DNA of 64,000 bases, from positions 2,206,799-2,270,798 of the forward strand of contig NZ_JAINZO010000001.1 in NCBI RefSeq assembly GCF_020179605.1. The letters run 5' to 3'. Source of the DNA: Geomonas agri (GTDB taxonomy: Bacteria; Desulfobacterota; Desulfuromonadia; Geobacterales; Geobacteraceae). A program made the position numbers and the translations under genes. Under the pieces are notes generated by a model. The model searched no databases and was not told the origin of the DNA. It was given only the letters and a program-made list of their open reading frames with translations. Below, piece by piece: positions 875 through 21,506 of the stretch (position 1 is the first letter of the stretch; each line of letters begins with the position of its first letter).

Positions 875-1312
875 TTATTCCTTGTCGGTCACGGTGGAGG
901 CGATTTCGTCGAGGATGCCGTTGACGAAGGATGCAGAATCGTCGGCGCCGAATTTCTTGGCGACCTCGATGGCCTCGTTCATGGTGACGTTCTTCGGGAT
1001 GTCCGGACGGTACAACAGCTCGAACACGGCCAGGCGCAGGATGTTCAGATCCACGCGCGCCATGCGGGCCATGCTCCAGTGCTTCGATTTCTCGGCGATA
1101 CGGCCGTCGATCTCCTGGAGGTGGCTGGCAACGCCGGCAACCAACTCGGCGGCAAAGGCATAGGCCTTGGAGTTGGTGGAAAGGGTCGGGTCCTCGCCTT
1201 CGCCGAAACTCTCGACGATGCGCTTGAGCGTGGTGCTCGGGTCCTGGGTCACCAGGTCCTTGGAGTAGAGCGCCTGCAGCGCCAGTTCTCTACCTTCTCT
1301 GCGTGTGGTCAA
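875..1312 (-). CDS. nusB: transcription antitermination factor NusB
   Basis: A 145-residue all-helical protein of normal NusB length. It opens with [16 protein letters not shown] and ends with the family region [11 protein letters not shown] followed by [10 protein letters not shown]. NusB pairs with ribosomal protein S10 (NusE) at boxA to promote antitermination in rRNA operons. The start is a TTG that directly follows the ribH stop codon (TAA-TTG), with GGGAG inside the end of ribH as the ribosome site, so translation is probably coupled. The ribH-nusB pairing is common in bacteria. It is the last gene of the riboflavin operon. Confidence 0.95.
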
Positions 1313-1780
<468 letters not shown>

Positions 1781-1798
1781 AATGACTCCAATAAAGAG

Positions 1799-3001
1799 TT
1801 AGATATTTTCCAGCAGGTGTCCCATCTTCTCCCGCTTGGTCTTCAGGTATTTCTCGTTGGCCTTGGACGGCTTGATCTCTATGGGTACCCGCTCGACGAT
1901 GTTGATGCCGTAGCCCTGCAGGCCGATCAGTTTCTTCGGGTTGTTGGTCATCAGGCGGATCTTCTTCACGCCGAGGTTGACCAGGATCTGTGCCCCGATG
2001 CCGTAGTCGCGCAGGTCGGCCTTGAAGCCCAGGGCCAGGTTGGCCTCGACGGTGTCGTGCCCCTGATCCTGCAGCGCGTAGGCCTTGAGCTTGTTGGTGA
2101 GACCGATGCCGCGCCCTTCCTGGCGCATGTAGAGGATGATCCCCTTCCCTTCCTTCTCGATCTGCGCCATGGCGGCATGCAGCTGCTCCGCGCAGTCGCA
2201 GCGCACGGAACCGAACACGTCGCCGGTCAGGCACTCGGAGTGGACGCGCACCAGGACCGGCTCGTCCCCTTTAACCTCGCCCTTGACCAGGGCCAGGTGC
2301 TCGAGCTTGTCGATGTCGTTTTCGAAGGCGACGGCCCGGAAGTCGCCGAAGGAGCTGGGGAGCGCGACGTCAACGGAGCGCCGCACCAGCGATTCGTGCT
2401 TGAGGCGATAGGCAACCAGGTCGGCGATGGTGCAGACCTTGATGCCGTGCTCCTTGGCGAATTTCTTGAGTTCCGGCATGCGCGACATGGTGCCGTCTTC
2501 GTTCATGATCTCGCAGATGACGCCGGCCGGTTCGAGCCCTGCCAGGCGCGCCAGGTCGACGGAGCCTTCGGTCTGCCCGGAGCGGACCAGGACGCCGCCG
2601 TTTTTGGCGCGCAGCGGGAAGATGTGCCCCGGGCGTGCCAGGTCGGATGCCTGGGCGTTGGGCGCCACCGCGGTCAGAATGGTGTGGGCGCGGTCCGCGG
2701 CGGAGATGCCGGTGGTAACGCCCTTCTTCGCCTCGATGGAGACGGTGAAGGCGGTGCCGAAGGAAGAGGTGTTGTCCTGCACCATGGGGGGCAGGTCGAG
2801 GCGGTCGCAGCGCTCCGCGGTCATGGTGAGGCAGATCAGGCCGCGGCCGAAACGCGCCATGAAGTTGATCGCCTCGGGGGTCACACACTGGGCCGCCATG
2901 GTGAGGTCCCCTTCGTTCTCGCGGTCCTCGTCGTCGACCAGGATCACCATCCTCCCGGCTCTGATCTCCTCAATGGCTTCCTCTATGCTTGCTACAGACA
3001 T
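1799..3001 (-). CDS. ribBA: bifunctional 3,4-dihydroxy-2-butanone 4-phosphate synthase / GTP cyclohydrolase II
   Basis: A 400-residue fusion. The N-terminal DHBP synthase domain (about 1-205) makes the four-carbon unit from ribulose 5-phosphate and keeps the acidic metal site [10 protein letters not shown] (residues 23-32). The C-terminal GTP cyclohydrolase II domain (about 206-400) opens GTP. It keeps the zinc cysteines in [17 protein letters not shown] and the catalytic RQEGRGIGL, so both halves look active, unlike some RibBA proteins with a decayed half. The ATG at 3001 is preceded by GAGGAGAGG. It lies 136 bases after ribE and just ahead of ribH. Confidence 0.97.
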
Positions 3002-3137
3002 TTATGTAACCTCTCCTCGTTCAGTATCGGTCGTCGGGATGGGAGTTTGATCCTTTCCCGCGGCCAAATTTGGTTGGACAACAAACCTTAGGGCGTTGAC
3101 CATAACAAAATTTTCGTCCAAGTGGAAGCAAAAGCAG

Positions 3138-3782
3138 CTAGATAAAGCCGTTTTTAGTCAACAGGTCCATGGTGACACCGCCCGGCTTTGCTTCCTTTCC
3201 CGCCAGGAGACGTTCGAGGTAACGGCAGAGCAGGTCGGTCTCGATGTTCACCTCGTCCCCCACCCTCTTGGAGAGGAGCGTCGTCTTGGACGCGGTGTGC
3301 GGGATGATGTTGACGCTGAAGCTGTCTGGGCCGACCTCGTTGACGGTGAGGCTGATGCCGTCGATGGCGACCGAGCCCTTGGCGGCGATGTATTTCGCGA
3401 ACTCCGCCGGGAACCTGAAGGAGAAGACGATGTTGTTGGCCACCTCGCGCCGTTCCGTGATGGTGGCGACGCAGTCCACGTGGCCGGAGACCAGGTGGCC
3501 GTCCAGGCGGTCCGACAGGCGCATGGCGCGTTCCATGTTGAGCGGCGCGCCGCTTTTCAGGTTCTTGAACGCGGTGCGGTCGATGGTCTCGGGGGAGACG
3601 TCGAAGGTGACCGCGCCGCCGCCTTTGCGCACCACGGTGAGGCAGGCGCCGTTGATGGCGATGGAATCGCCGATCCGGATCTCGTCCAGGGGGAGCGAGG
3701 TCTTGACCGTGAGGCTCCCCGACGCGCCGCGGCGCTCGATGGAGACCAGTTCGCCTACTGTTTCAATAAGACCTGTGAACAT
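3138..3782 (-). CDS. ribE: riboflavin synthase, alpha subunit
   Basis: A 214-residue riboflavin synthase made of two repeated lumazine-binding barrels (about 1-97 and 98-200). It dismutates two 6,7-dimethyl-8-ribityllumazine molecules to riboflavin. The N-terminus MFTGLIETVGEL is the family signature and SGHVDCVATI marks the start of the second barrel. I start at the ATG at 3782, which has AAGAGG upstream and matches the usual MFTGI/L start; a TTG one codon earlier is also possible. Some annotators call this gene ribC. It is third from the front of the riboflavin genes. Confidence 0.95.
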   Translation of the reverse strand: MFTGLIETVGELVSIERRGASGSLTVKTSLPLDEIRIGDSIAINGACLTVVRKGGGAVTFDVSPETIDRTAFKNLKSGAPLNMERAMRLSDRLDGHLVSGHVDCVATITERREVANNIVFSFRFPAEFAKYIAAKGSVAIDGISLTVNEVGPDSFSVNIIPHTASKTTLLSKRVGDEVNIETDLLCRYLERLLAGKEAKPGGVTMDLLTKNGFI

Positions 3783-3793
3783 CAAAACCTCTT

Positions 3794-3833
3794 AAACCAT
3801 TGGCCATGGTCCGCAAGCGATGGCTAATGGTTT
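3794..3833 (-). other. stem-loop between ribD and ribE
   Basis: AAACCATTGGCCA at 3794-3806 pairs with TGGCTAATGGTTT at 3821-3833 (13 pairs, one of them a wobble). The hairpin overlaps the ribD stop codon and lies just upstream of the ribE ribosome site. There is no downstream T-run of terminator quality, so it more likely affects mRNA stability or ribE translation than ends transcription. Confidence 0.55.
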
Positions 3834-4927
3834 TGCTTTTTTACCGGTGTTCCTTCCACCAGCAGGTCGACGCCGATGCGCCTTACCTTCACTTCTTCCA
3901 GCCGGATGGCGTCGGACATGAGCTGGACTCCCTCGCCGGCGAAGAGTCCCGTGCCGGCGCCGCCGACGAGCTTGGGGGCCAGGAACAGCATGCAGTGGTC
4001 GATGAGCCCGCCCCTCACGAAGGCGCCGGCCAGGTGGTGGCCGCCCTCCAAAAGGACCGACTGCACGCCACGCTCGCCGAGCTTCGCCAATAGGTCGTCC
4101 AAGTCGACCCGCCCTTCCTTTTCCTTGCAGACCAGCACCTCGACGCCGTGGGCCGCTAGCGCCTCGACCCGCGCCGTGTCCGTGCAACAGGTGGCGATGA
4201 CGGTGGGCGCCTGCGACTTCAGGCTGAACAGTGCGGCGTGGCGCGGGATCCTGAGCGTCGAATCGACGATGACCCGCAGGGGGTCCTTGCCGCCGGGGAC
4301 CCGGCAGGTCAGGAGCGGATCGTCCTTGATCACGGTGCCAACGCCGACCATGATGGCGTCCAACCTGCCGCGCAGCCGGTGCACCTCGCGCCGGGCCGCA
4401 TCACTGGTGACCCACTTGGAATCGCCGCTGGCCGTCGCACTCATGCCGTCCAGGGTGAGCGCGCTTTTCAACACCACGTAGGGGCGCCTGGTCTGGATCC
4501 ACTTGATGAAGGGGTGGTTCAGCTCCCGGCTCTCAGCCTCCAAAAGCCCCACCTCGACCTCGATGCCAGCGTCGCGCAGCATGCCGATGCCCCGGCCGGA
4601 AACGAGCGGGTTAGGATCGACCATGGCGACGAAGACCCGCCCGACACGCGCCTCGATGAGCGCCTTGGCGCAGGGAGGGGTCTTGCCGAAATGGGAGCAG
4701 GGTTCCAGCGTCACGTAGACATCGGCGCCCTCGGCGAGGGCCCCGGCCGCACGCAGGGCGTGCACCTCGGCGTGGGGCGTGCCCGCTTTTTTATGCCACC
4801 CCTTGCCGACGATGGCGCCATCTTTCACGATGACGCAGCCGACGGCAGGGTTGGGGGCGGTCTTGCCGACGCCCTTTCTGGCCTCGGTCAGCGCCAGACG
4901 CATCATTTTCAGGTGCTGTGCGGACAT
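3824..4927 (-). CDS. ribD: bifunctional pyrimidine deaminase / 5-amino-6-(5-phosphoribosylamino)uracil reductase
   Basis: A 367-residue RibD. The N-terminal deaminase (about 1-145) has the zinc motif HAEVHALRAAG and the pair of cysteines in EPCSHFGKTPPCAKAL. The C-terminal NADPH-dependent reductase (about 150-360) has LKSALTLDGM near its start and LLEGGHHLAGAF. Together they carry out the second and third steps from GTP in riboflavin synthesis. It is the first rib gene and lies about 180 bases downstream of nrdR, separated by an inverted repeat. No FMN riboswitch core was recognised upstream, so FMN control is not evident from sequence. Confidence 0.96.
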   Translation of the reverse strand: MSAQHLKMMRLALTEARKGVGKTAPNPAVGCVIVKDGAIVGKGWHKKAGTPHAEVHALRAAGALAEGADVYVTLEPCSHFGKTPPCAKALIEARVGRVFVAMVDPNPLVSGRGIGMLRDAGIEVEVGLLEAESRELNHPFIKWIQTRRPYVVLKSALTLDGMSATASGDSKWVTSDAARREVHRLRGRLDAIMVGVGTVIKDDPLLTCRVPGGKDPLRVIVDSTLRIPRHAALFSLKSQAPTVIATCCTDTARVEALAAHGVEVLVCKEKEGRVDLDDLLAKLGERGVQSVLLEGGHHLAGAFVRGGLIDHCMLFLAPKLVGGAGTGLFAGEGVQLMSDAIRLEEVKVRRIGVDLLVEGTPVKKQNH

Positions 4928-4963
4928 GTGTGCTCGTCTAGGTTGATTTCACTGCCGGGGCTT

Positions 4964-5080
4964 CCCCCTCACCCCTGCCCCTCTCCCGGAGGGCGAGGGG
5001 ATGAATGCCACCATGCCGTCTCTGCCAGGAGGATAGCCGTCCACACTCCCTCTCCCCCCGGGAGAGGGTCGGGGTGAGGG
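4964..5080. repeat. long inverted repeat (REP-like) between nrdR and ribD
   Basis: The arm at 4966-4989 (CCCTCACCCCTGCCCCTCTC and four more bases) is matched, with one indel, by the reverse complement of 5058-5080. The arms are about 23 bases with about 68 bases between them, and each arm also contains smaller C/G palindromes. C/G-rich elements of this look recur in the window near 811-835 and 59960-60055, which suggests a dispersed palindromic family. Confidence 0.65.
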
Positions 5081-5108
5081 CGCTGCAAACATAGCGGGGT
5101 TCACCCAG

Positions 5109-5561
5109 TTACTTCTTCAGCAGGTCCTGCAGCTCGACCATGAACTCGTTGATGTCCTTGAAGGAGCGGTACACGGAGGCGAAACGGACGTAGGCGACCT
5201 GGTCGATGCCGTGCAACTCGTTCATGATCCACTCGCCCAGGGTGGTGGTCGGGATCTCGCGCTCGCCGCTTTCCTGCATGCGGGTCTCCAGGCGATCCAC
5301 CAGCTTCTCGATGGTCTCCACCGAAACCGGCCTCTTCTCGCACGCCTTCTGCAGGCCGTTCACCAGCTTCAGGCGGTCGAACGGCTCGCGCCGGCCGTCA
5401 CGCTTGGTCACCAGGGGGAGCACTTCCTCGACCCGCTCGTGGGTGGTGAAGCGCTTGCCGCAGGACTCGCACTCGCGCCGGCGCCGGATGGCGGCGCCAC
5501 CCTTGTCGGGACGGGAATCGACTACCTTGCTGTCGCTGAAACTGCAGAAGGGACATTTCAT
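5109..5561 (-). CDS. nrdR: transcriptional repressor NrdR
   Basis: A 150-residue NrdR, the usual length. The N-terminal zinc ribbon has CPFC at residues 3-6 and CESCGKRF at about 31-38. An ATP-cone domain follows (about 49-139, starting [16 protein letters not shown]). NrdR senses the ATP/dATP state and represses ribonucleotide reductase genes at NrdR boxes. The start overlaps the stop of the dCMP deaminase gene by four bases (ATGA), so the two are coupled. The pairing links dNTP-pool control with dUMP supply. Confidence 0.97.
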
Positions 5562-6013
5562 GGCTGCGACTCCTCGTACTTCTCGACGATGATGCCGGAC
5601 TCGCGGATCATCTCCTCCGCCAGTTGATCGGGATAGCCGGAGAGGTAGACCACGCGCTTGATGCCGGCGTTGATCACCATCTTCGAGCAGATGATGCAGG
5701 GCATGGTGTTGCAGTACAAGGTGGCCCCTTCAATGGAGGTGCCGTGCTTGGCAGCCTGGATGATCGCGTTTTGCTCGGCATGCAGGCCGCGGCAGAGTTC
5801 GTGGCGCTCGCCGGACGGGATCCCCATCTTCTCGCGCAGGCAGCCGATATCAAGGCAGTGGGCGGTCCCCGACGGTGCGCCGTTGTAGCCGGTCGCCAGG
5901 ATGTTCTTGTCCTTCACCAGGACGGCGCCGACCTGCCTCCTCAGGCAGGTGGAGCGTTTGGCAACCAGGCGTGTGATCTCGATGAAATATTCATCCCAAC
6001 TCGGACGCACCAT
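5558..6013 (-). CDS. dCMP/cytidylate deaminase family protein
   Basis: A 151-residue zinc deaminase of the ComEB/dCMP deaminase type. Catalytic zinc motifs are GLHAEQNAI (His plus catalytic Glu) and TMPCIICSK (two cysteines), preceded by the family start [18 protein letters not shown]. The enzyme deaminates dCMP to dUMP, feeding dTMP synthesis. It heads an overlapping pair with nrdR. A second zinc site is possible from the cysteines and histidine around [10 protein letters not shown], as in known dCMP deaminases. The substrate is inferred from family membership. Confidence 0.9.
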
Positions 6014-6067: not shown

Positions 6068-7333
6068 TCAAGCGGCGTGAGAGTACGGGGAGACTGATTC
6101 ACATGAGGACGTTGCCGCAGCGCAAGTCACCGGGATCGTTTTCGTGGTCGAGCACGGGACACCCTCCGCCCCCGGTTCCATGCTGTGCAGGGCGAAGAGG
6201 AGGACGGCGCCAAGCCCGACGGTCCCCGCGGTGTGGAATACGGCGGCAATGCCGAGGCTTCCCTGCAGCAGCGCACCGCACAGGGGACCCGCTGCGAAGC
6301 CGAGGTTGAGCGCGGCGTTGAATGTTCCCACCGTCACCGCCATGCCGTGCCGCATCCCCTCTTCCACCAGAAGTGCGCTGCTGGCCGGTTGAGAGACGAC
6401 GCTGCAGACGCCGATAGCCACGGTGAGTATGAGCATCTGGTAGAAACCGGGCGCCGCCGGGAGCAGAAAGTAGAGCAGGGAAACGGCGCTCCCCCCGGCA
6501 AGTACCAGCAGGCGGCGCGGCGCGCGGTCGGAGAGTTTGCCCATGGGACGCAGGAGCAGCGTCATGGCGACGGTACCGGAGGCGAGAATGATGCCGCTGC
6601 GCGCACCGGTCAGCCCGAGCTTCGCGGTGAGCAGGATGGGGAGAAAGGAGCCGGTGAGCGAGATCCCGAAGGCCCGGCCGAAGATGAAGGCGAGCAGCGC
6701 GCGGTAACTGCCGGGGCGATCCAGCTGCCAAAGCCGGAAAGCTGACGCTGCCTCATGTCGGCGTGCGTTGCCGGTACCGTGCCCACCGCCGGGGATGCCG
6801 CGCAGGGCGGCACAGAAAGCGGCGAGACACAAGAGGGCGACCGACATGAAGACGCCTGCGAAGCCAAAGGAGTCCTTGAGCAGGCCGCCGACCAGCGGCC
6901 CCAGGCACAACGCGCCGTAAAAGGAAATGTCGAAGGTGGCGAGAACGGTGCCGCGTTTTCCTTCCGCCGTGCAACTGCCGACCAGCGCCAGGAGCACCGG
7001 GCGGAACAGCGCGCAGCTCACCCCCTGCAGCAGGCGCAGCACGATGAGCGCCGGGACCGAGAGATTGTAGAGATAGCCCGTCGAGACCAGGAGGTAAAGG
7101 GCGAGGCTCACCAGCACCGCCCGGCGGTGCCCAACGCGATCCGACCAAGCGCCGAGCGCCGGGCTGCAGACGATCTTGGCGAGTGAATAGCAGACCAGCG
7201 GCAGCCCGAGCATGAGCCCACGCGCGCCGAGACTGAAGAGATAGGTCGAGAAGAAGGCGTCGGCAATACCGAAGCCGAGGGTTACGGCGAAGTTGACCAG
7301 GAACAGGATTCGCAGCAGATTGCGCTCCGGCAT
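6068..7333 (-). CDS. major facilitator superfamily transporter
   Basis: A roughly 421-residue integral membrane protein with about twelve hydrophobic segments. The MFS loop 2-3 signature is seen as LGAWSDRVGHRRAVL, and a related loop in the second half reads LLRPMGKLSDRAPRRLL. I start at the ATG at 7333 (MPERNLLRILFLVNF), five bases after the stop of the hemerythrin-like gene, so the two are probably translated together. A longer frame upstream overlaps that gene. Fold is clear; substrate and direction are unknown. Its position behind the cytochrome/flavoprotein/porin genes makes uptake or efflux of the same substrate a reasonable but untested guess. Confidence 0.85.
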   Translation of the reverse strand: MPERNLLRILFLVNFAVTLGFGIADAFFSTYLFSLGARGLMLGLPLVCYSLAKIVCSPALGAWSDRVGHRRAVLVSLALYLLVSTGYLYNLSVPALIVLRLLQGVSCALFRPVLLALVGSCTAEGKRGTVLATFDISFYGALCLGPLVGGLLKDSFGFAGVFMSVALLCLAAFCAALRGIPGGGHGTGNARRHEAASAFRLWQLDRPGSYRALLAFIFGRAFGISLTGSFLPILLTAKLGLTGARSGIILASGTVAMTLLLRPMGKLSDRAPRRLLVLAGGSAVSLLYFLLPAAPGFYQMLILTVAIGVCSVVSQPASSALLVEEGMRHGMAVTVGTFNAALNLGFAAGPLCGALLQGSLGIAAVFHTAGTVGLGAVLLFALHSMEPGAEGVPCSTTKTIPVTCAAATSSCESVSPYSHAA

Positions 7334-7338
7334 CTCGT

Positions 7339-7749
7339 TTACCCCCGCGCGGTGAGGAAGGCCTCGAAGAGCCGATCGTGTACTTCGATGTGCTCCAGCC
7401 AAAGCCGGCGGATCTGCTCCAGCTCGTCAGCAGGCGCCCCCTTCCCCAGAGCCAGGCGGTAGCGCAGCTTCGCCGTCCCGATGCTGATGGACTGGTGACA
7501 CAGCCGGTGTTCCCTCGCCTTGGGGAAGTCCACCAAATCCATGAAGCGCTCCTCCGGCCCGATCTGGGTCAGCGTCGCCTTCACCAGTTGATCGAGCTCA
7601 CCGCTCACGTCGCTTGAAGGCTGCCGGCGCAACTGGTCGAGCATCCGGTTCAGGTGGCCGATGATGCTTCTGTAGCGGCTGTCCCAGTGCAGGGGCTCGT
7701 GGTGCGGGTCACGCACGCTTGCGCTGTGGACCTGGCTGTTCGTTTCCAT
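7339..7749 (-). CDS. hemerythrin-like protein
   Basis: A 136-residue helical protein from the ATG at 7749. The four-helix hemerythrin pattern is visible: a His in helix 1 (SIIGHLNRML), EERFM followed by FPKAREHRLCH in the middle, and HIEVHD in the last helix. These supply most of the di-iron ligands, but where the family normally has His in the HFxxEE motif this protein has Gln (QIGPEE). Hemerythrins bind O2, NO or iron. The gene lies between the porin and the MFS gene and may be cotranscribed with them. A conventional start upstream of 7749 would run into the hairpin region. Confidence 0.75.
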   Translation of the reverse strand: METNSQVHSASVRDPHHEPLHWDSRYRSIIGHLNRMLDQLRRQPSSDVSGELDQLVKATLTQIGPEERFMDLVDFPKAREHRLCHQSISIGTAKLRYRLALGKGAPADELEQIRRLWLEHIEVHDRLFEAFLTARG

Positions 7750-7769
7750 CCTTTCTTCCCCTTGGTGAA

Positions 7770-7793
7770 GGCGGGGGGAGAAATCCCCCCGCC
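7770..7793 (-). other. hairpin between porin and hemerythrin-like gene
   Basis: GGCGGGGGGA pairs with TCCCCCCGCC around a four-base loop, a 10-base-pair GC stem. No T-run follows on the minus strand, so it is not a standard terminator. It could stabilise the upstream porin mRNA or attenuate read-through into the last two genes. Confidence 0.6.
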
Positions 7794-7835
7794 GCCATTG
7801 CTGCGACGCCCGGCGGCTGCCGGGGCATCGGGATG

Positions 7836-9017
7836 TTAAAAGGTCATCTGCCACTTGGCGCCGGCGATCAGGGAACGCGGCTCGTTTTGCCCCAGGGAGT
7901 TCTTGAAGTCGTTGATGTAGTCGATCTCCGGGACGATGTTGATGTGCTTGCCCAGGGCATAGTTCAGGTTGATGAAGGACGCCATCCGGGCATCGGCATG
8001 CGCCATGGAGTTGTCATCGACCACGTAGGAGGCGCCGGCATAGACCATGGTGCGGTCGCTGGCGCGGTAGCCAACCTGGCCGAAGCCGCCAATGGTATGG
8101 GAATTCTTGCCGTGCAGGGTGTCGTAGTAGGCACCGTTGGCCTGGCCGGGGTTGGCCAGGGTGTTGCCGGTACCGTTGCCGGTGGCGGTGCTCATCAGGT
8201 CGCCGGTATTCTGACCGGTGAAGACGTTGTAGCTGAATTCCACCGGCGCGAGGTCCACCTTGCCGTGGAAGAAGGCGAGGTAGGAATAGATGTCGTGCTT
8301 GGTCGGGGTGGAGTTGTTGGTCGAGCTGGTCACCTTGTACACGTTGCCGGCGACGCCGCCGCCGTAGTTCCAGTTGTTGAGTTTCCCTTCGTAGCCTACG
8401 ACCATCTTGGGGAGCATGGTGTCGTAGTCGGTGTAGGTGGCGGCATAGCTGTTGCCGGTCTGGCTGTAGGCGGCAGTAACGTCGGCGTTGGGCGAGACGT
8501 TGGTGGTGTTGTTGGCCTGGTTGCCGACGCGCGGCTGCATGGCGTCGACGTAGAAGCCGTTGTTCATGGTCACCTTGATGTTGGCGTAGCGGCCGTCCCA
8601 GAGCGAGCCGTAGCCGTTGAAGCCGCCGTCGCTGTCCCATACCTGCTGGGAACGGAACACGTAGGGGCTCGGCGTCTTACCGATGCGCAGCTTGCCCTCG
8701 CCGAAATCCCACTCGCCGTAGAGAAGCCGTACCTCCACCCCTTTGGAATACGCTTTCGGGTTGTACAGGCCGATCTCGGCCACGCCGGAGTATTCACCGT
8801 CTTTCACTTTCACCCCAACGAAGCTGTCGCCGAAGTTGTCCAGGCTGAAGTCGCTGTCGCGCCTTGAGGCGCCGGTGGTCGGGCTGTAGAAGGAGTTCTG
8901 GGTCCAGAAGGTTCCCAGCTTGATGTTGCCGTAGGCGTTGAGATCGATCGCCAGTGCGGGCGCGGAGCACGCGAGGGCTGCGGCAAAGGTCATGGCCGCG
9001 ATGTTCATCTTCTTCAT
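7836..9017 (-). CDS. outer-membrane porin
   Basis: A 393-residue exported protein. It begins with a typical signal peptide (MKKMNIAAMTFAAALACSAP, cleavage after ALA near residue 23). The mature part is rich in alternating aromatic beta-strand patterns such as VRLLYGEWDF and ATYTDYDTML, and it ends in Phe (WQMTF), as outer-membrane barrels do. It follows the flavoprotein gene by about 90 bases on the same strand, so it probably admits the organic substrate reduced by that enzyme. Substrate specificity cannot be read from the sequence. Family resemblance is to general beta-barrel porins of respiring proteobacteria. Confidence 0.85.
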   Translation of the reverse strand: MKKMNIAAMTFAAALACSAPALAIDLNAYGNIKLGTFWTQNSFYSPTTGASRRDSDFSLDNFGDSFVGVKVKDGEYSGVAEIGLYNPKAYSKGVEVRLLYGEWDFGEGKLRIGKTPSPYVFRSQQVWDSDGGFNGYGSLWDGRYANIKVTMNNGFYVDAMQPRVGNQANNTTNVSPNADVTAAYSQTGNSYAATYTDYDTMLPKMVVGYEGKLNNWNYGGGVAGNVYKVTSSTNNSTPTKHDIYSYLAFFHGKVDLAPVEFSYNVFTGQNTGDLMSTATGNGTGNTLANPGQANGAYYDTLHGKNSHTIGGFGQVGYRASDRTMVYAGASYVVDDNSMAHADARMASFINLNYALGKHINIVPEIDYINDFKNSLGQNEPRSLIAGAKWQMTF

Positions 9018-9106
9018 GGTACTGTTCCCTTTCGATTGGTAGTCGTTGAATTAGTTGCCATGCCATGCGCTGCCGTGGCGGGGTCACCGCCACGGCAGGT
9101 AAGAAG

Positions 9107-10642
9107 CTACTTGGTCATGCCGGCGTACTTGAGCGCGTTCTCGGCGGCGATACGTCCGGAGTTGATGGCGTAACCCGCGGTGCCGCCTCCCAAGAGCAGG
9201 TCGTAGCTGTCGCCGTACATGCCGCCGGAGTCGGTGCCGACCGCGTACAGGCCGGGGATCGGCTCGCCCTTGGCGTTGACCGCCTCGGTGTTGCCGCTGA
9301 TCTTGACCCCGCCCAGGGTGCCCAGGTGACGCGGCAAGAGCTTGACGGCGTAGAAGGGACCGGTGGCGACGGGGCGCAGGTACTTGGACTTCTTGTTGAA
9401 CTGGCTGTCCTCGCGCACGGCGGCGGACTTGTTCATGGTCTCGACGCTCGTCTTCAGGATCTTAGGATCCATGTTGAGCTGCTTGGCGAGGTCCTCGATG
9501 GTATCGGCCTTGAAGGCGAAGCCGCGCTTCCTGGTCAGCTCCTTGTTGAAGGACTCGTCGAATTTCACCAGCTTGGTCCCCTGCAGCACCCACTCGCCCA
9601 GCGGCATCTCGATCCCCTTCTCGACGGCCAGCTTCCTGGTGGCTTCGTCGAAGATGGAGTAGGCGGTGCCGCCGATCCTGGTGATGGCGTTGCCAGCGTA
9701 GGGCCAGAACTCGACGCTGGACTCGTCGACGTAGCGCTCGCCGCGCGGGGTGACCCAGAAGTAGGGCTGCACGGCCAGGGCGATCATCTGGTCGGCCGGG
9801 TGGAAACCGGGGAGACCCGGGCGGTACGCCTCGACGGTACCCATACCCTCGAGCTGCGCGCCGGCCTTTTCGGCCATCCTGATGCCGTCGCCGTCTTTGC
9901 CGATGTTGCCGACCGGGATCACGTCAGGGTATGCGACGTACTTCTTCATCATTTCCTTGTTGTTGGCGAAGCCGCCGGTCGCGATGATGACGGCCTTGGC
10001 CCTGACCTTCAGCTCCTCGCTCGACTTGTCCTTGGCCACAACGCCGACCACCTTGCCGTTCTCGGTAATGAGGTCGGTGCCCGGGGTCTCCAGGAGGATC
10101 TTGCCGCCGTGATCCACCACGTACTTCTCGAAGACGTTGATCATCCTCTGGCAGTGGAAGTCCCTCGGGTTCTTGTCCGGGTAGTCCGGGCCCGGGGCGA
10201 TGACGTGCCAGGTGAGCGGGCCGCCGAAGCCGCCGACGCCGACGTACTCGATCTTCACGCCCAGGTTGTCGAGCCAGTCGATGGTCTCGGCGGACTTGTC
10301 CACGAAGTTCTTGGCCAGGGCGCCGTTGGCCTTCCAGTGGCTGTAGTTCATGATCAGCTTGAAGGCGAAATCCTTGCTGACGTCGATGCCGATACGCTTT
10401 TGCGGCTTGCTCTCCGCGGCGAAGACGCCCTCGCAGAAGCTGCCGGTGCCGCCCACCTTGGCCTGCTTCTCGAGCACAACCACATTCGCGCCCAGCTGCA
10501 GCGCCTGAACCGCGGCGGCCAGGCCAGACGTGCCGGCGCCCACCACGACTACGTCGGTTTTCATCTCCTTCTCAGCCATTGCCGGTGCGGCAAAGGCGAG
10601 CAGTGCGACGAGCACCGTCGCGATACCTCGAACTCTTCTCAT
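9107..10642 (-). CDS. periplasmic FAD-dependent reductase-like flavoprotein (flavocytochrome c family, heme-free)
   Basis: A 511-residue FAD_binding_2 protein with an N-terminal signal peptide ending around AMAEK (residue 25). The FAD site is seen as DVVVVGAGTSGLAAAVQALQ (about 31-50) and again near the C-terminus in GLYAVGTDSGGMYGDSYD. It has no CXXCH, so its heme partner must be separate; the tetraheme cytochrome gene just upstream fits. This split arrangement resembles, by recollection, the methacrylate reductase (Mrd/Mcc) and urocanate reductase families. Residues that bind and protonate fumarate in flavocytochrome c3 appear replaced (HxxGG-region HTMGG becomes GTLGG; the NRLGG Arg becomes Leu). 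The substrate is therefore probably not fumarate. It likely reduces an organic acceptor in the periplasm. Confidence 0.85.
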   Translation of the reverse strand: MRRVRGIATVLVALLAFAAPAMAEKEMKTDVVVVGAGTSGLAAAVQALQLGANVVVLEKQAKVGGTGSFCEGVFAAESKPQKRIGIDVSKDFAFKLIMNYSHWKANGALAKNFVDKSAETIDWLDNLGVKIEYVGVGGFGGPLTWHVIAPGPDYPDKNPRDFHCQRMINVFEKYVVDHGGKILLETPGTDLITENGKVVGVVAKDKSSEELKVRAKAVIIATGGFANNKEMMKKYVAYPDVIPVGNIGKDGDGIRMAEKAGAQLEGMGTVEAYRPGLPGFHPADQMIALAVQPYFWVTPRGERYVDESSVEFWPYAGNAITRIGGTAYSIFDEATRKLAVEKGIEMPLGEWVLQGTKLVKFDESFNKELTRKRGFAFKADTIEDLAKQLNMDPKILKTSVETMNKSAAVREDSQFNKKSKYLRPVATGPFYAVKLLPRHLGTLGGVKISGNTEAVNAKGEPIPGLYAVGTDSGGMYGDSYDLLLGGGTAGYAINSGRIAAENALKYAGMTK

Positions 10643-10711
10643 CGATTCCTCCTCTTGATTCCCCTCAGGGGTTGGTGCGACGCGGTTTTGCCGCGTTCGG
10701 AACAGTTCGAG

Positions 10712-11065
10712 CTACTTGTCCTTGAATTCGAAGTCGCTGTGGCACTCCAGGCACAGGTACTCCGAAGGAGCGTGCACCCGGTGACACTTGAGGCAGGCCA
10801 TTCTCCCCAGGTGGGAGTCGTGCGGGTTGTTGTGCATCCCCTTGGTACGCTCCGCCATCTTGTCGTAGCCGCCGTGGCACTCGAGACAGGCCTCGACGGC
10901 CGCAGCCGCCGTAGGTTTGTCCGTCTTGTGGCAGTCGGCGCAGCCGAGCCCCTCGGAGCCGTGTTTCCCCTTGATGTTCGCCGCCGAGGCCTCACCCTGC
11001 GGCAGGCACATCCCCGCCCCCAGTGCGACCAGCAGCGACAGCGCTACCAATACTTTCTTCCCCAC
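10712..11065 (-). CDS. tetraheme c-type cytochrome, periplasmic
   Basis: A 117-residue secreted cytochrome with four CXXCH motifs (CADCH, CLECH, CLKCH, CLECH), so four covalent hemes in a mature protein of about 90 residues. A signal peptide runs to about GEASAA. I start at a GTG at 11065 with GGGAGG five bases upstream; frames extending further upstream cross the promoter. Hemes of this spacing are typical of the small cytochromes that feed flavocytochrome-type reductases. It is the first gene of the operon and is expected to pass electrons from the inner-membrane quinol pool to the flavoprotein encoded next. Confidence 0.92.
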   Translation of the reverse strand: MGKKVLVALSLLVALGAGMCLPQGEASAANIKGKHGSEGLGCADCHKTDKPTAAAAVEACLECHGGYDKMAERTKGMHNNPHDSHLGRMACLKCHRVHAPSEYLCLECHSDFEFKDK

Positions 11066-11143
11066 GTGAACCTCCCATTCCTGTTGTTGGCTGATCATCA
11101 TCGGGGCCCACTGCTGTGGAGCCGGCCCCGTTGCGTTGATTGT

Positions 11144-11159
11144 TGGCAAATAACGTGCT
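11144..11159 (+). promoter_or_regulatory. possible sigma-54 promoter toward the activator gene
   Basis: TGGCAAATAACGTGCT on the plus strand has the GG-N10-GC spacing of a -24/-12 element but a weaker -12 block (GTGC). It would allow autoactivation of the regulator, with a start near 11171 and a leader of about 130 bases. It could be a chance match. Confidence 0.35.
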
Positions 11160-11173
11160 TTGCATGTGGGAAT

Positions 11174-11189
11174 AGCAGCGAGCATGCCA
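11174..11189 (-). promoter_or_regulatory. sigma-54 promoter of the cytochrome/flavoprotein/porin operon
   Basis: On the minus strand the bases read TGGCATGCTCGCTGCT, which match the -24/-12 consensus (TGGCA, GG and GC spaced by ten bases). Transcription would start near 11162, leaving a leader of roughly 95 bases before the cytochrome GTG. The adjoining gene is a sigma-54 activator, which supports the assignment. Confidence 0.75.
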
Positions 11190-11250
11190 GCAAAAACTCG
11201 ATGGATATTCGGTGAGTTACAGTAAAGGCTCGTATACAACGTGGAAAATA

Positions 11251-11268
11251 CCTATCATTATGATAAGG
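11251..11268. promoter_or_regulatory. palindromic candidate activator-binding site (UAS)
   Basis: CCTATCATTATGATAAGG contains a perfect TATCAT-T-ATGATA palindrome. A half-site (TGATAGG) follows at 11282-11288. It lies about 62-77 bases upstream of the minus-strand sigma-54 promoter, a plausible distance for an enhancer bound by the neighbouring regulator. Confidence 0.5.
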
Positions 11269-11302
11269 TGCTTTATTATTCTGATAGGCACAGGAGGCGG
11301 GG

Positions 11303-12934
11303 ATGCAATCGGCGGATCTGGATTTACGGGAGCTACTATCCTTCCGTCCCGACGGGGGGACCATGTTTTTCATGGGGCGCAGGGCCATCATCTTCGATGC
11401 CATCGCCCTGGGGCTCTTGCGCAAAGAGTTAATCGATTCGCTGGGCGTGGCAGCGGCGCGCAGCATCCTGACCCGGTTCGGCTACGCCCACGGCAGGATG
11501 ACGGCGGAGAGCCTGAAACTGGAGTTTCCCGACCTGTTCGCCGACAGCTGGACCGGACCCAAGTTGCACATGCTGCAGGGGATGGTCCGGGTGGAAGAGA
11601 ACAAGCGCTCGGACGGCAGCGACGACGAACCGCTGGTCCAGTCCTTCTGGTACGACTCCTATGAAGTGGAGCAGCACCTGTTGCACCTGGGGCTTTCCGA
11701 GGATTCGGTCTGCTGGACCCTGACCGGCTTCGCCAGCGGCTACGTCTCGTACTGGAGGGGGGAGAAGGTCTACTTCATCGAGGACCGCTGCTGCGGCAAG
11801 GGGGACGCGGTCTGCCACGTCGAGGGGAGGACCAGGGAACAGTGGGGCGAGGCACTGGAACCGTATCTCCCCTACTTCGAGTCTGAGACCGGGGACGAGG
11901 TGTTCCAGAACCTGGCCAAGGCACTGAGGGACACCGAGGAGCGCCTGAAGAAACAGCGGCGCCAGATGTCGTGCCTCAGCCCTGGGGGCGAGGACTTCGG
12001 CTGCATCACCGCCCGCTCGGGCGCCATGCGGCAGGTGGTGGAGTTGACCCGGCGCATCGCCCGTGTCGATTCTTCGGTGATCGTAACTGGAGAGAGCGGC
12101 GCGGGCAAAGAGCGCATCGCACGGCTGATCCACGAAGAGTCGGCGCGCTCGGGTCGCCCGTTCGTGGCCGTTAACTGCGGCGCCCTCACCGAAACCCTCC
12201 TCGAGAGCGAACTTTTCGGTCACGCCAAGGGCGCCTTTACCGGGGCCGACCGGGACAAGATGGGACTCATCGAGGCGGCCCACGGTGGCACGCTGTTCCT
12301 GGACGAGATCGGCGAGATCTCCCAATCGATGCAGGTGAAGCTCTTGCGCGTGCTGCAGGAGCGGGAGGTGCGGCGAGTCGGCGAGAACAAGTCACGCCAG
12401 GTCGATATCAGGGTGGTCGCCGCCACCAACAGGAACCTCTCCGAGGAAGTGGGTACGGGGAACTTCAGGCGCGACCTCTACTATCGCCTGAGGGTGATCG
12501 AGGTGCGGGTCCCTCCCCTGCGCGAGCGCAACGAGGATATCCTCCCCCTGGCGCGCATCTTCCTGGAGCAAGCGTCCAAGCGCGCCGGGCGCAGAGTGAC
12601 CGGGTTCACCCCGAAGGCTGCCGACCAGCTGTTGCGCTACACCTGGCCGGGTAACGTGCGGGAATTGCAGAATGCGGTGGAGCACGCCGTGGCGCTCTCC
12701 CTAGACACGCGGGCCGACCTCGAGGACCTGCCGGAAGAGCTCAGGTCGGCCCTGCCACGGCCGGGGGTCGTGGAGTCGGTGCGACCGCTGGAAGAGGTGG
12801 AGCGGGAATACATCCTGGCGGCGTTGAGGGTCACCGGCAACAACAAGGCACGTACGGCGGCCGAGTTGAACATCGGTGTCGCCACCTTGTACCGCAAGCT
12901 CGCCGAGTACGAGAAGCAGGGTTTCCTCCCCTGA
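11303..12934 (+). CDS. sigma-54-dependent activator, XylR/DmpR type (XylR_N, V4R, AAA+, Fis HTH)
   Basis: A 543-residue enhancer-binding protein. Order of domains: XylR_N-type activator domain (about 15-100, with LLRKELIDSLG and LTRFGYAHGRM); V4R ligand domain (about 110-175, with FASGYVSYW and the zinc-type EDRCCGKGDAVC); a linker; AAA+ domain (about 230-400) with Walker A GESGAGKE, the sigma-54 contact GAFTGA and Walker B LFLDEIGE; and a C-terminal Fis-type helix-turn-helix (NKARTAAELNIGVATLYRKL). Relatives such as DmpR, XylR and PoxR bind phenolic or other aromatic effectors, so the ligand is probably a small aromatic or related organic molecule. GGAGGCGGGG precedes the ATG. It is divergent to the respiratory operon that it probably controls. 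Confidence 0.93.
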   Translation: MQSADLDLRELLSFRPDGGTMFFMGRRAIIFDAIALGLLRKELIDSLGVAAARSILTRFGYAHGRMTAESLKLEFPDLFADSWTGPKLHMLQGMVRVEENKRSDGSDDEPLVQSFWYDSYEVEQHLLHLGLSEDSVCWTLTGFASGYVSYWRGEKVYFIEDRCCGKGDAVCHVEGRTREQWGEALEPYLPYFESETGDEVFQNLAKALRDTEERLKKQRRQMSCLSPGGEDFGCITARSGAMRQVVELTRRIARVDSSVIVTGESGAGKERIARLIHEESARSGRPFVAVNCGALTETLLESELFGHAKGAFTGADRDKMGLIEAAHGGTLFLDEIGEISQSMQVKLLRVLQEREVRRVGENKSRQVDIRVVAATNRNLSEEVGTGNFRRDLYYRLRVIEVRVPPLRERNEDILPLARIFLEQASKRAGRRVTGFTPKAADQLLRYTWPGNVRELQNAVEHAVALSLDTRADLEDLPEELRSALPRPGVVESVRPLEEVEREYILAALRVTGNNKARTAAELNIGVATLYRKLAEYEKQGFLP

Positions 12935-18558: not shown

Positions 18559-20514
18559 CTACCGCCCGGACCGGTTCTGTTCAGGTTCTTTGGGGGGCTT
18601 TGGTTTCTCAGGTGAGGCCCGCGCAGAAACGGCCGGACTGCCTCCTTGGTTAATCAGCACATTGCTGCCGACGATGTTGACTCCCGCCGGGCTAATATCT
18701 ATGAAGCTGTCTCCTACTTTCAGGCACACCTGAGTCAGGGATTCGATCACGATGTTTTTTGCTGAGAGGACAACTACCTCCTCCCCTGCCTGCAACGCGC
18801 ACTTGGTTGCAACCTTTAGTTGCACGTCCGCGCCCAGTGAAAGGGAAAGGGTTCCGCCAATGGTTTCATTGCAGTCGCCTACAATTTCAACGTGCTGATC
18901 GCGCGACACCTTCTCCAGCCGGTCCCGGTTGACGATGAGGTGGCGATCCTGCCCAACCCACTCCACGGAGTCCTCATTCACACGGTTCACCTGCTCCCGC
19001 TGCGCGTGAAGGTACAGCTGCTCCTCACCTTTCTTGTCCTCGAAGCGCAGCTCATTGTGCCCTTGTCCACCGGGCGTCGAACACGACTTCAGACAGCTTT
19101 TGGTCTTCTCCGCGGGCAGTTGGTAGGGTGGCAGGTTCATCCCGTTATGAAGCTGGCCGATGATGACCGGCCGGTCGGGATCACCCTCCAGGAATTGAAC
19201 CAGCACTTCATGACCGACACGGGGCAGAAATGTAGCGCCCCAACCGTTACCGGCCAGTGGCTGGCTCACCCTGATCCAGCAGGAGCTGCTGTCGTCGCCC
19301 TTCACTGCCCGATCCCAGAGAAACTTGACCTTTACCCGGCCGTACTGGTCGGTGTGAATCTCCTCTCCCGGCGGCCCCACGACCACAGCCGTCTGCGTCC
19401 CCTGCACGACCGGCTTTGGTGTAAGGCGTGTCGGGCGATATGGGGTCTGATGAGGTATGCAGACGAAGCTGTTGTGATAACTGGAAGAGGAACCTGTGGC
19501 GTATGCTTCCATCGCGTCATGCTTCACGGACACCAGGAGCAACTCCTTGCCCTCCCAGTTACTGTTGCAGTGATCTCTAAGCCTGAAGCGATAGCCGCTG
19601 GCAAAGGCACGACAATCGCTACTGCCGAACATAACGGTGGCCATTGTTTCTTCTTCCTCCATGCGGATCCTTGCCAGCCTGTCGCCTGCGCTCCTGCTGC
19701 CGTAGCAACCCGGAGCGTCATAGACCTCACATTTCGCCGTCTGTGTCTGGGCTACGGCGGGAGCTTCCGCTTTTAATCCCGTCCTTGGAATGGCGAAGTT
19801 GTAGTCATTAAGGGAGTACCTGCCGGAATGCATGTAGCGTGTGGTTTCCAGGGCGGTGATCACATCTTCGTTCCTGGTGCCGGTCGCGCTGGAACGCGAT
19901 GAGGCGTTCTGCTGAAACGGACAAGGCGGATTGGCATCGGGAGAATCTGCGATGATCATCGTGTGCTTGCCGTCCTCATGCCGGAAAAAATAGAAGAGGC
20001 CTTCTTCCTCCAGAAGGCGGGACACGAAATTGAAGGCGGTTTCCCGGTACTGGACACAGAACTCTCTCTTGTCGTAACTCCCGCGCAGATCGAAGCGGTA
20101 CCAGGAAAAACCATGGTTTTCGAATACCTGCTCCACAATCTCCGGGGTAGACCGGTTCTGGAAGATCCTTATGTCAGCACTTTTGCTAAGGGTCCAGAAC
20201 CAGGGAACGAGTATGCATCTGTAAAAGGAAAAGCGGCTATCCTCACCCTCTTCACCGCCCGACCTGCCCTGGGTGAAACTGGCAATGGTCCCGTTCAGGT
20301 ATCTCCTCCTGCCGTTAGTGAGGGTGATTGAGACAGTTGCGTTGCTGCCTGGAAGCGTTTGGAGTGGAATGGAGTGACGTTCGGAAAGTAGAGACAACTC
20401 AAAGCTGAAACTACGGGAGATCCCCTCCTCCCCGGTCAAATCCGTCAAGAGAAGTGCATCTTCCCCCAAAGTCGTGCGTATGGAAATGAGCCGGTCACGT
20501 TGTGTGAATGTCAT
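18559..20514 (-). CDS. vgrG: type VI secretion spike protein VgrG (TssI)
   Basis: A 651-residue VgrG. The N-terminal gp27-like half starts with FTQRDRLISIRTTLGED and contains FYRCILVPWFWTLSKSADIR and the ETAFNFVSRLLEEEGLFYFF block. The gp5-like OB region follows at about 380-470 (DQYGRVKVKFLWDR and WGATFLPRVGHEVLVQFLEG). The C-terminal beta-helix spike occupies about 515-630. After it there are only about 20 Pro/Lys/Glu-rich residues, so no enzymatic extension is present. VgrG trimers cap the Hcp tube and carry effectors. Its ATG overlaps the tssG stop (ATGA). No PAAR gene follows it here. Confidence 0.96.
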   Translation of the reverse strand: MTFTQRDRLISIRTTLGEDALLLTDLTGEEGISRSFSFELSLLSERHSIPLQTLPGSNATVSITLTNGRRRYLNGTIASFTQGRSGGEEGEDSRFSFYRCILVPWFWTLSKSADIRIFQNRSTPEIVEQVFENHGFSWYRFDLRGSYDKREFCVQYRETAFNFVSRLLEEEGLFYFFRHEDGKHTMIIADSPDANPPCPFQQNASSRSSATGTRNEDVITALETTRYMHSGRYSLNDYNFAIPRTGLKAEAPAVAQTQTAKCEVYDAPGCYGSRSAGDRLARIRMEEEETMATVMFGSSDCRAFASGYRFRLRDHCNSNWEGKELLLVSVKHDAMEAYATGSSSSYHNSFVCIPHQTPYRPTRLTPKPVVQGTQTAVVVGPPGEEIHTDQYGRVKVKFLWDRAVKGDDSSSCWIRVSQPLAGNGWGATFLPRVGHEVLVQFLEGDPDRPVIIGQLHNGMNLPPYQLPAEKTKSCLKSCSTPGGQGHNELRFEDKKGEEQLYLHAQREQVNRVNEDSVEWVGQDRHLIVNRDRLEKVSRDQHVEIVGDCNETIGGTLSLSLGADVQLKVATKCALQAGEEVVVLSAKNIVIESLTQVCLKVGDSFIDISPAGVNIVGSNVLINQGGSPAVSARASPEKPKPPKEPEQNRSGR

Positions 20515-21506
20515 GCTGTAAACCTCATTTGGTCGGGATCGAAGGTCACGAACGGGTCGGCATCAAGAACGGAGTCTGGCGCTTTGAGCCAGGTGGAACA
20601 GCCAAGCCTAGCTGCATCGGAAGTCACAACCCCGAGCCTACACCCGGGAACTTCCTCTCTCCTCAACATGAGCCTGGCCTCGAACTGGTATTCGGGTCCC
20701 ACCAGGAACCTGACCAGTGAAGCTAGCTCTTTCAGTTTCCGGTCTGACGACAGATCGATGAAATCGTCGAAAGACATTGGCCCCAGACAAAGCCGGAAGG
20801 TAGATTCAATGTCGCAGGTCTGGCCGCCGCAGACGGCGTCAACACCGAGCTGGCAATTGTTCTGGCCCAGCATGGTCATCTCCGACGGCTCCAAGCCCAC
20901 CATACGCGGTACAAACGACTCGACCTGGACATCCACGCTGAGGACATACTGAACGATCTGGGCAATGGTGCCGGCTGATGCTACCTGCCGACTTGCCAGC
21001 CCGCAAAACTGCAGCAATGCAGCCTCCGATGCTGAAAGCTTTTCCCGCAGTCCCTCGGTCCCCAGTCCGAGAAAGCTGAAGAGATGATTGGAGAAGACAT
21101 CGCTGTTGTCGCTTTCCTTCTGTGGCAAAAGCGAGGTGCACTTCCACGCACGATAAAAGAGGGATACGAGGCGGTGGTGAAAGAGGTCGTAGAAGTCGCC
21201 CATTGCATGATCGTGCGCCCGTTCCCGCTCCAAAAGCAGTTCATGGTACCAATGCGGCAATACTCCCGCCGGACCGATTAGTCCCATCAGGGTAACTTCG
21301 ACCTGGGTAGATCCGTCCTCACCGAAGGTAATCCCAGTGACGTCGCCTGCCGGAAAGGCAAATCCTTTCCTCACGGTGAAGCGGATCTTTTCCGTGTCTG
21401 GCGACGAGGCAGTTGCTACCTCGTGGCGGCCCCGCTGGATCCGCTCCAGCATACGAACCGTGGCAAAGAAGCCGCGGACAGATGGATTCGGCGCATGTAC
21501 TCTCAC
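20511..21506 (-). CDS. tssG: type VI secretion baseplate protein TssG
   Basis: A 331-residue TssG (VasB/ImpH). Family features are the N-terminal VRGFFATVRMLERIQRG, the middle FYDLFHHRLVSLFYRAWK and the C-terminal LGCSTWLK. I take the GTG at 21506, which overlaps the tssF stop (GTGA); a GTG at 21539 would overlap tssF by 37 bases. TssG forms the wedge of the baseplate with TssE, TssF and TssK. It is followed by the overlapping vgrG. Confidence 0.93.
   Translation of the reverse strand: MRVHAPNPSVRGFFATVRMLERIQRGRHEVATASSPDTEKIRFTVRKGFAFPAGDVTGITFGEDGSTQVEVTLMGLIGPAGVLPHWYHELLLERERAHDHAMGDFYDLFHHRLVSLFYRAWKCTSLLPQKESDNSDVFSNHLFSFLGLGTEGLREKLSASEAALLQFCGLASRQVASAGTIAQIVQYVLSVDVQVESFVPRMVGLEPSEMTMLGQNNCQLGVDAVCGGQTCDIESTFRLCLGPMSFDDFIDLSSDRKLKELASLVRFLVGPEYQFEARLMLRREEVPGCRLGVVTSDAARLGCSTWLKAPDSVLDADPFVTFDPDQMRFTA

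Follow-up and report, generated by a model that had tools for sequence, protein, structure and literature searches.

Introduction

According to the available portions of the reports cited here and below, the described urocanate and methacrylate reductases handle carboxylate substrates. UrdA keeps an Arg/His/Arg set for the substrate carboxylate (PMC7921117), and the methacrylate reductase Mrd keeps R353/H461/R501 for the same purpose and carries a twin-arginine translocation (Tat) leader (PMC4427408). A carboxylate, ferulic acid, also serves as electron acceptor in Weissella cibaria (PMC13101492). The closest described regulators are phenol sensors that accept small para-substituted phenols (PMC10715001) and use a His/Trp pair to anchor the phenolic hydroxyl (PMC7264223, PMC10715001); the DmpR structure places this His as conserved in phenol sensors and as Tyr in XylR (PMC7264223). 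Here we describe a cassette of six genes, at about positions 6068-12934 of a 64,000-nucleotide stretch of the Geomonas agri genome (contig NZ_JAINZO010000001.1, positions 2,206,799 to 2,270,798; hereafter the window), which consists of a sigma-54 activator gene and, divergent from it, genes for a cytochrome, a flavoprotein, a porin-like protein, a hemerythrin-like protein and a transporter of the major facilitator superfamily (MFS). Geomonas is an iron-reducing genus isolated from paddy soil.

We tentatively propose, as a reading that falls a little short of an even chance, that these genes form a mobile, phenol-inducible periplasmic reductase cassette with a vinylphenol-type acceptor and MFS-mediated flavin export. 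The individual parts are of known kinds, and the new variation lies in how they are combined and in the neutral acceptor predicted for them; among the entries listed by searches of a partial literature collection, none described such a cassette, respiration with vinylphenol, or a flavin exporter of the MFS type in Geobacter. The initial annotation of this DNA had named a cytochrome, a heme-free flavoprotein, a porin, a hemerythrin-like protein, an MFS transporter and a divergent activator, and every one of these genes was found; its coordinates, 7339-12934, fit the other five but excluded the MFS gene (6068-7333) named in its text.

The flavoprotein resembles vinyl phenol reductase and lacks the carboxylate triad

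The flavoprotein gene (9107-10642, minus strand; 511 amino acids) was examined using profiles, alignment, a tree and fold neighbours, and its product has an active site like that of vinyl phenol reductase. It is a heme-free protein that binds flavin adenine dinucleotide (FAD; Pfam FAD_binding_2, 201.4 bits), with a periplasmic leader of the general secretory (Sec) type, MRRVRGIATVLVALLAFAAPAMA, read from the sequence in agreement with a script; a Tat leader of the Mrd type is not present. The best NCBIfam family was vinyl phenol reductase (VprA, NF053717), matched over the full length with 374.9 bits, and the flavocytochrome c family TIGR01813 scored 219.1 bits, below its cut-off of 285. For comparison we used the VprA encoded on a Lactiplantibacillus plantarum (L. 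plantarum) plasmid, a protein other than the characterised chromosomal enzyme, which scores 783.8 bits against NF053717, above the cut-off. Alignment revealed that the equivalents of R402, H504 and R544 are all replaced in the window flavoprotein, by E311, by G441 and, instead of Arg544, by a longer GDSYDLLLGG loop. The plasmid VprA likewise lacks the three residues, and the motifs YSH, TWH, GNA and GD[ST]Y are common to both proteins. The carboxylate triad was R/H/R in 12 of 65 aligned flavoproteins, R/F/R in one and neither in 52; Tyr occupied the R544 column in 50 of these 52.

In a tree of 65 rows, the fumarate and urocanate reductases formed a group apart (99/96) and the window flavoprotein grouped with VprA (100/99), outside the fumarate reductase clade. 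Close kinship with methacrylate and urocanate reductases, as suggested in the initial annotation, was not borne out, given the replaced triad and the separate clade. Fold neighbours of the flavoprotein included 3-ketosteroid dehydrogenases (KSTD) and cyclohexanone dehydrogenase; a second list of fold neighbours had no vinyl phenol reductase structure among its entries, from which nothing was concluded. Next to the flavoprotein gene lies that of a periplasmic tetraheme cytochrome c (10712-11065, minus strand; 117 amino acids, GTG start), recognised from its sequence, with four CXXCH motifs, and from a match to Cytochrom_c3_2 (68.7 bits). The same genome holds a second split flavoprotein/tetraheme pair (L044 8034-9587 and G000:C1:509668-509901), which reads T/K/G at the three triad positions and lacks an MFS gene within six genes.

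The activator retains the phenol anchor of known sensors

The activator (11303-12934, plus strand; 543 amino acids) was characterised by profile matches and residue alignment. It combines XylR_N (99.7 bits), V4R, sigma-54 AAA+ (239.2 bits) and Fis-type helix-turn-helix (HTH_8, 51.8 bits) domains. The three Pfam scores given exceed their cut-offs; V4R reaches 29.6 bits against a gathering score of 31, with its zinc site retained as C137, E160, C163 and C171, the counterparts of C155, E178, C181 and C189 in MopR. In the MopR alignment the pair that anchors the phenol hydroxyl, H106 and W134, is also retained, as H89 and W116. The His/Trp pair was present in 18 of the 19 regulators adjoining the closest flavoproteins, the exception being G073 (L066_4), and was replaced by Ser/Met in the activators of two further genomes, G008 and G016. 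Its retention predicts that the activator binds a phenolic ligand rather than a hydrocarbon, and leaves the particular phenol unspecified. The 'aromatic or acrylate-like acceptor' of the initial annotation is in this way sharpened to a phenol in its aromatic part, and its acrylate-like part becomes unlikely with the loss of the triad.

The cassette activator is the only XylR_N gene in its genome. Among 33 XylR_N copies of its type called in Geobacterales stretches, 25 lay no more than four genes from a flavoprotein, and an additional linked copy (L054) was located by flavoprotein search rather than gene calling. Flavoproteins were also found in the 1.5-kb flanks of 12 of the 13 loci L146-L158, many of which are the same cassettes, and in none of the flanks of the 16 longer, higher-scoring XylR_N loci (L130-L145). 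The link between regulator and flavoprotein is common, yet this type of sensor serves other genes too.

The control region between the activator and cytochrome genes contains one sigma-54 -24/-12 promoter for the cytochrome-led operon, TGGCATGCTCGCTGCTA (11173-11189, minus strand; one match in the whole window against 0.03 expected). All 18 divergent regions that were scored had a GG-N10-GC element facing the cytochrome gene. These elements matched 9-11 of the 12 consensus letters, compared with 4-9 for opposite-facing ones, in a comparison that had no shuffle control and left out L066, where the regulator is not upstream. A palindrome, TATCATTATGATA, at 11253-11265 (one match against 0.00 expected) is a likely upstream activator site. 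The same 13-mer was identical in 10 of 10 Geomonas regions; the form TATCANNNTGATA occurred in L061 and L062 of a second family, the remaining regions of which had looser versions or none, and an extra TGATA half site lies at 11282-11286. An inducible extracytoplasmic redox cassette beside an XylR/DmpR-type activator, as first annotated, is supported; neither outcome named in that annotation as contrary came about, since the flavoprotein stands apart from the fumarate reductase clade and the regulator stays linked to it in relatives. A weaker sigma-54-like GG-N10-GC element (11144-11160; 9 of 12 letters) faces the activator gene, as in three other Geomonas, and self-regulation of the activator is possible.

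The cassette is gained or lost as one block

We searched 147 genomes of relatives, the window's own included, for the flavoprotein at E at most 1e-60. Codon-scored gene calling in these genomes missed some genes (the flavoprotein of L054 and the MFS gene of L050), which were supplied by sequence search. The flavoprotein was present in 20 genomes: 10 of the 19 Geomonas genomes, with 93-95% identity in the nine besides the window's, seven genomes of the second family (72-84% identity) and three with distant copies only (G111, G114 and G124). The named records matched were from Geomonas, Oryzomonas, Trichlorobacter and metagenome-assembled genomes (MAGs) of Geobacteraceae. Activator, cytochrome and flavoprotein lay within one 4.5-kb stretch at all 17 loci with at least 72% flavoprotein identity, in both families, so the regulator linkage of the initial annotation held in related genomes; at one of these loci, L030, the regulator was on the opposite side of the flavoprotein. 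The cassette of the window sits between the dCMP deaminase and tex genes. In the nine Geomonas genomes that lack the flavoprotein, these two genes were directly adjacent eight times and were separated by two other genes in the ninth (L237). This arrangement argues that the six genes have been gained or lost together, as a single block, at a site immediately before the riboflavin operon.

Beyond Geobacterales, Desulfopila and a Nitrospiraceae MAG share the order activator, cytochrome, flavoprotein. Another four loci, three from Deferribacterota (L084-L086) and one from Shewanella mangrovi (L109), had a cytochrome, a flavoprotein and an OprD-like porin with a GntR/FCD-type gene upstream; Pfam confirmed OprD in L084 and L109, GntR/FCD in L084 and only the FCD part in L109. 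The S. mangrovi locus (8043-12801) has in a row the flavoprotein homologue (58% identity), the OprD porin and a tannase/feruloyl esterase, together with the cytochrome. G111 had six flavoproteins over the threshold and eight XylR_N genes. In G098, an activator with 74% sensor identity accompanies a Tat-type flavoprotein, a cytochrome, a porin, an FG-GAP protein and RibBA, and G008 and G016 carry a similar set with the activator that lacks His/Trp. The layout of sensor, reductase, cytochrome and porin is thus a modular theme in which reductases are exchangeable. The alternative cassettes at L196, L198 and L199 combine an XylR_N activator, a Tat-type flavoprotein, a tetraheme cytochrome, a porin and an FG-GAP-repeat protein, with Ser/Met in two of the three activators. 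At L194 (801-4490) the flavoprotein gene is interrupted by two IS21-type insertion genes (IstB_IS21 and Mu-transpos_C_2).

The MFS transporter is a candidate flavin exporter

The MFS protein (6068-7333, minus strand; 421 amino acids) matched MFS_1 (141.9 bits), and its proposed role as a flavin or FAD exporter draws on gene neighbourhoods. At E at most 1e-60, 43 copies were found in 24 of the 147 genomes. Of 42 called copies, 38 were preceded on the same strand, at a distance of no more than six genes, by a flavoprotein, which was fused to a four-heme domain in 16 cases and heme-free in 22. The other four were L054, where the caller had missed a flavoprotein that was located by search, L201/L194, where it is split by the insertion in the adjoining stretch, L217, at a contig end, and L220, with the nearest listed flavoprotein about 9 kb upstream; the 43rd copy (G010:C11) has a flavoprotein upstream by its coordinates. 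Genomes with the window-type flavoprotein had the MFS gene in 18 of 20 cases, the two without being G101, where two flavoprotein copies run to contig ends, and G114, whose flavoprotein has no leader. Of the 19 Geomonas genomes, 14 carried the MFS gene, and the same 14, with no others, had a flavocytochrome c above the cut-off (Fisher 8.6e-5, which overstates the association because the genomes are related). Five MFS copies (L049, L062, L063, L067 and L201) had a RibBA gene one or two genes upstream. A Shewanella flavin exporter is cited, without a name, in the available text of PMC9973259.

A less probable but serious alternative is that the cargo of the MFS protein is what the reductase consumes or forms. 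It is an ordinary MFS_1 protein encoded within the operon, with drug-efflux-like family scores that are all under their cut-offs, and many Sec-type homologues elsewhere have no such partner, all of which would fit a substrate carrier. A script counted 43 Sec-like flavoproteins, mostly outside Geobacterales, without a nearby MFS gene, a figure that includes two misread Tat proteins and some stretches ended by contig ends; they include homologues in Sutterella, Serratia, Brenneria and Shewanella. A second flavocytochrome c over the cut-off in 11 Geomonas genomes has no adjoining MFS gene either, and both findings tell against flavin export. Three observations speak against substrate transport. 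First, the fused flavocytochromes accompanied by the MFS protein retained R/H/R in six of six aligned, and the heme-free ones do not, so the same subfamily accompanies enzymes of different specificity. Second, none of the five Geobacterales flavoproteins with a Tat leader (L066_3, L193_5, L196_4, L198_5 and L199_6), which are expected to fold with their cofactor in the cytoplasm, has a copy within six genes, and G008 and G016, with Tat-type cassette flavoproteins, have no such MFS gene in the genome. Third, there are the RibBA neighbours. The Tat leaders were assigned by eye, ten in all; the pattern script gave nine matches, two of them false (L086_14 and L108_0), and missed three (L112_2, L113_3 and L193_5). 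The other five Tat-type proteins are little informative, being four from Sutterellaceae, where Sec-type ones also lack the MFS gene, and L114_1 of a Syntrophobacterales MAG, whose cluster also contains an MFS gene and a flavoprotein of the Sec type. The association with Sec-exported flavoproteins of varied specificity and, often, with riboflavin genes suggests that the MFS protein exports flavin and does not transport the substrate.

Remaining genes and genomic setting

The porin-like protein (7836-9017, minus strand; 393 amino acids) had no Pfam match and was assigned to the outer membrane from its position, signal peptide, C-terminal Phe and an all-beta model of low confidence (predicted local distance difference test score 53.6), too weak for a fold search. 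In other cassettes this slot holds OprD, alginate-export or Phenol_MetA_deg proteins. The degenerate hemerythrin-like protein (7339-7749, minus strand; 136 amino acids) was recognised by alignment and by profile scores below the family cut-offs (Pfam, 20.6 versus 25.3 bits; NCBIfam bacteriohemerythrin, 40.6 versus 84 bits). It has Gln where many relatives have the His of the HxxxE motif, so its metal site may be impaired.

From the cytochrome gene through the MFS gene, the minus-strand gaps measure 69, 89, 86 and 5 bp. A further 54 bp separates the MFS gene from that of dCMP deaminase, the first of a complete riboflavin operon block (dCMP deaminase, NrdR, RibD, RibE, RibBA, RibH and NusB; 875-6013) that adjoins the cassette directly downstream on the same strand and lies outside it. 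No RNA element, including an FMN riboswitch, was found in the cassette at the Rfam gathering score; three tRNAs lie elsewhere in the window. Scans for sigma-70 promoters and terminators gave counts close to chance. The window also encodes two type VI secretion proteins, a VgrG-like protein (18559-20136; Phage_GPD, Gp5_trimer_C) and TssF (21503-23278).

Discussion

In the mechanism that we propose, a phenolic compound would bind the XylR_N/V4R sensor through H89 and W116, and the activator would then bind the TATCAnnnTGATA palindrome and open the sigma-54 promoter; the residues and DNA sites were observed, and their action is proposed. The acceptor would enter the periplasm through the porin-like protein, and electrons from an inner-membrane quinol system would pass to the tetraheme cytochrome and on to the FAD flavoprotein, as the gene pairing suggests. 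The flavoprotein would reduce the C=C double bond of a phenolic alkene that has no carboxyl group, most likely one of the 4-vinylphenol type, and so yield the ethylphenol, because the active site is like that of vinyl phenol reductase and the sensor is of the phenol type. Candidate substrates are 4-vinylphenol and 4-vinylguaiacol, which other organisms would produce from plant hydroxycinnamates. The MFS protein would export FAD or another flavin, supplied by the neighbouring riboflavin operon, and so load the Sec-exported apo-flavoprotein beyond the inner membrane, a role suggested by comparative genomics.

Several observations weigh against this proposal. The flavoprotein score misses the NF053717 cut-off of 600, its identity to the plasmid VprA is 31%, and that protein has a long branch in the tree, so the identity of the substrate does not follow from kinship with VprA. 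The residue in the R544 column varies with the alignment, being Leu in one and Tyr in others. Phenolic acid decarboxylase (PF05870) was not found in the genome, so vinylphenol would need an outside source. On the regulatory side, the sensor is 31% identical to that of MopR and differs at further pocket positions, and the G073 regulator without His/Trp stands beside a flavoprotein of 73% identity. Seven short-type XylR_N copies (L189, L190, L191, L195, L196_10, L197 and L200) have no flavoprotein within four genes and all retain His/Trp; at a further place, L192, gene calling yielded no regulator, and it is outside this count. XylR_N activators generally control catabolism, and the ligand of the cassette may accordingly be an inducer alone.

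An unlikely but credible alternative is that the same cassette serves another neutral phenolic or conjugated acceptor, such as a stilbene (resveratrol), a coniferyl-type alcohol, an enone or a chalcone. Loss of the triad indicates only that there is no carboxylate, the fold neighbours KSTD and cyclohexanone dehydrogenase have enone substrates or products, and VprA is on its long branch; against this, VprA is the best curated family and the sensor family accepts small para-substituted phenols (PMC10715001). Less probable still is the reverse direction, in which a periplasmic dehydrogenase would oxidise an alkylphenol-like donor and pass electrons through the tetraheme cytochrome to Fe(III). The same fold relatives are dehydrogenases, the host bacteria reduce iron, and activators with XylR_N usually induce catabolism of their own ligand. 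However, VprA is a reductase, the cassette has no aromatic-degradation gene, and small tetraheme cytochromes pair or fuse with methacrylate and fumarate reductases (PMC4427408). Methacrylate, urocanate and cinnamate were rejected as substrates on the missing carboxylate residues, the separate clade and the leader type, and the acrylate-like or aryl-acrylate acceptor of the initial annotation is very improbable, since UrdA and Mrd keep Arg/His/Arg (PMC7921117, PMC4427408) and the window flavoprotein, Sec-like in its leader where Mrd has a Tat leader (PMC4427408), lacks all three.

We advance only with hesitation, as rather unlikely on present evidence, the broader view that a transferable sigma-54 cassette enables Geobacterales and scattered relatives to respire vinylphenols, or other phenolic alkenes without a carboxyl group, and that the co-travelling MFS protein, also found with fused fumarate-type flavocytochromes, is the flavin exporter that these bacteria use for Sec-exported periplasmic flavoproteins. 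If true, neutral plant phenolics would join the known periplasmic respiratory acceptors in iron reducers of paddy soil, and the cassette would indicate where ethylphenols in anoxic soil may come from. The presence of Arg/His/Arg offers a simple sequence test that separates users of carboxylates from users of other substrates among periplasmic flavin reductases still to be assigned, and the MFS protein is a concrete candidate for the flavin exporter of Geobacterales.

Comparison with known systems

The phenol sensors DmpR/CapR, MopR, PoxR, PheR and EtpR are like the window activator in domain order, zinc site and His/Trp anchors; they control degradation (PMC10715001), whereas the window activator flanks a reductase and a cytochrome. 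The Mrd/Mcc system of Geobacter sulfurreducens AM-1, like the cassette, encodes a heme-free flavoprotein and a separate tetraheme cytochrome in one operon, and a GTP cyclohydrolase gene follows (PMC4427408). Unlike the window flavoprotein, Mrd has R353/H461/R501 and a Tat leader, and the available text of that report describes no XylR_N regulator. The VprA of L. plantarum and the window flavoprotein are alike in best curated family, triad loss and shared motifs. The plasmid VprA has no leader; its gene adjoins one for a LysR protein, and no cytochrome gene is listed in the surroundings. Unlike it, the window flavoprotein has a leader and a tetraheme cytochrome partner and scores under the family cut-off. 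Compared with UrdA and Fcc3 of Shewanella, the window flavoprotein lacks the carboxylate residues and belongs to another clade. Finally, the Shewanella flavin exporter, which we take to be Bfe, would have the same job as that proposed for the window MFS protein, the supply of flavin for periplasmic reductases; Bfe is a MATE-type protein, and the candidate exporter of the cassette belongs to the MFS.

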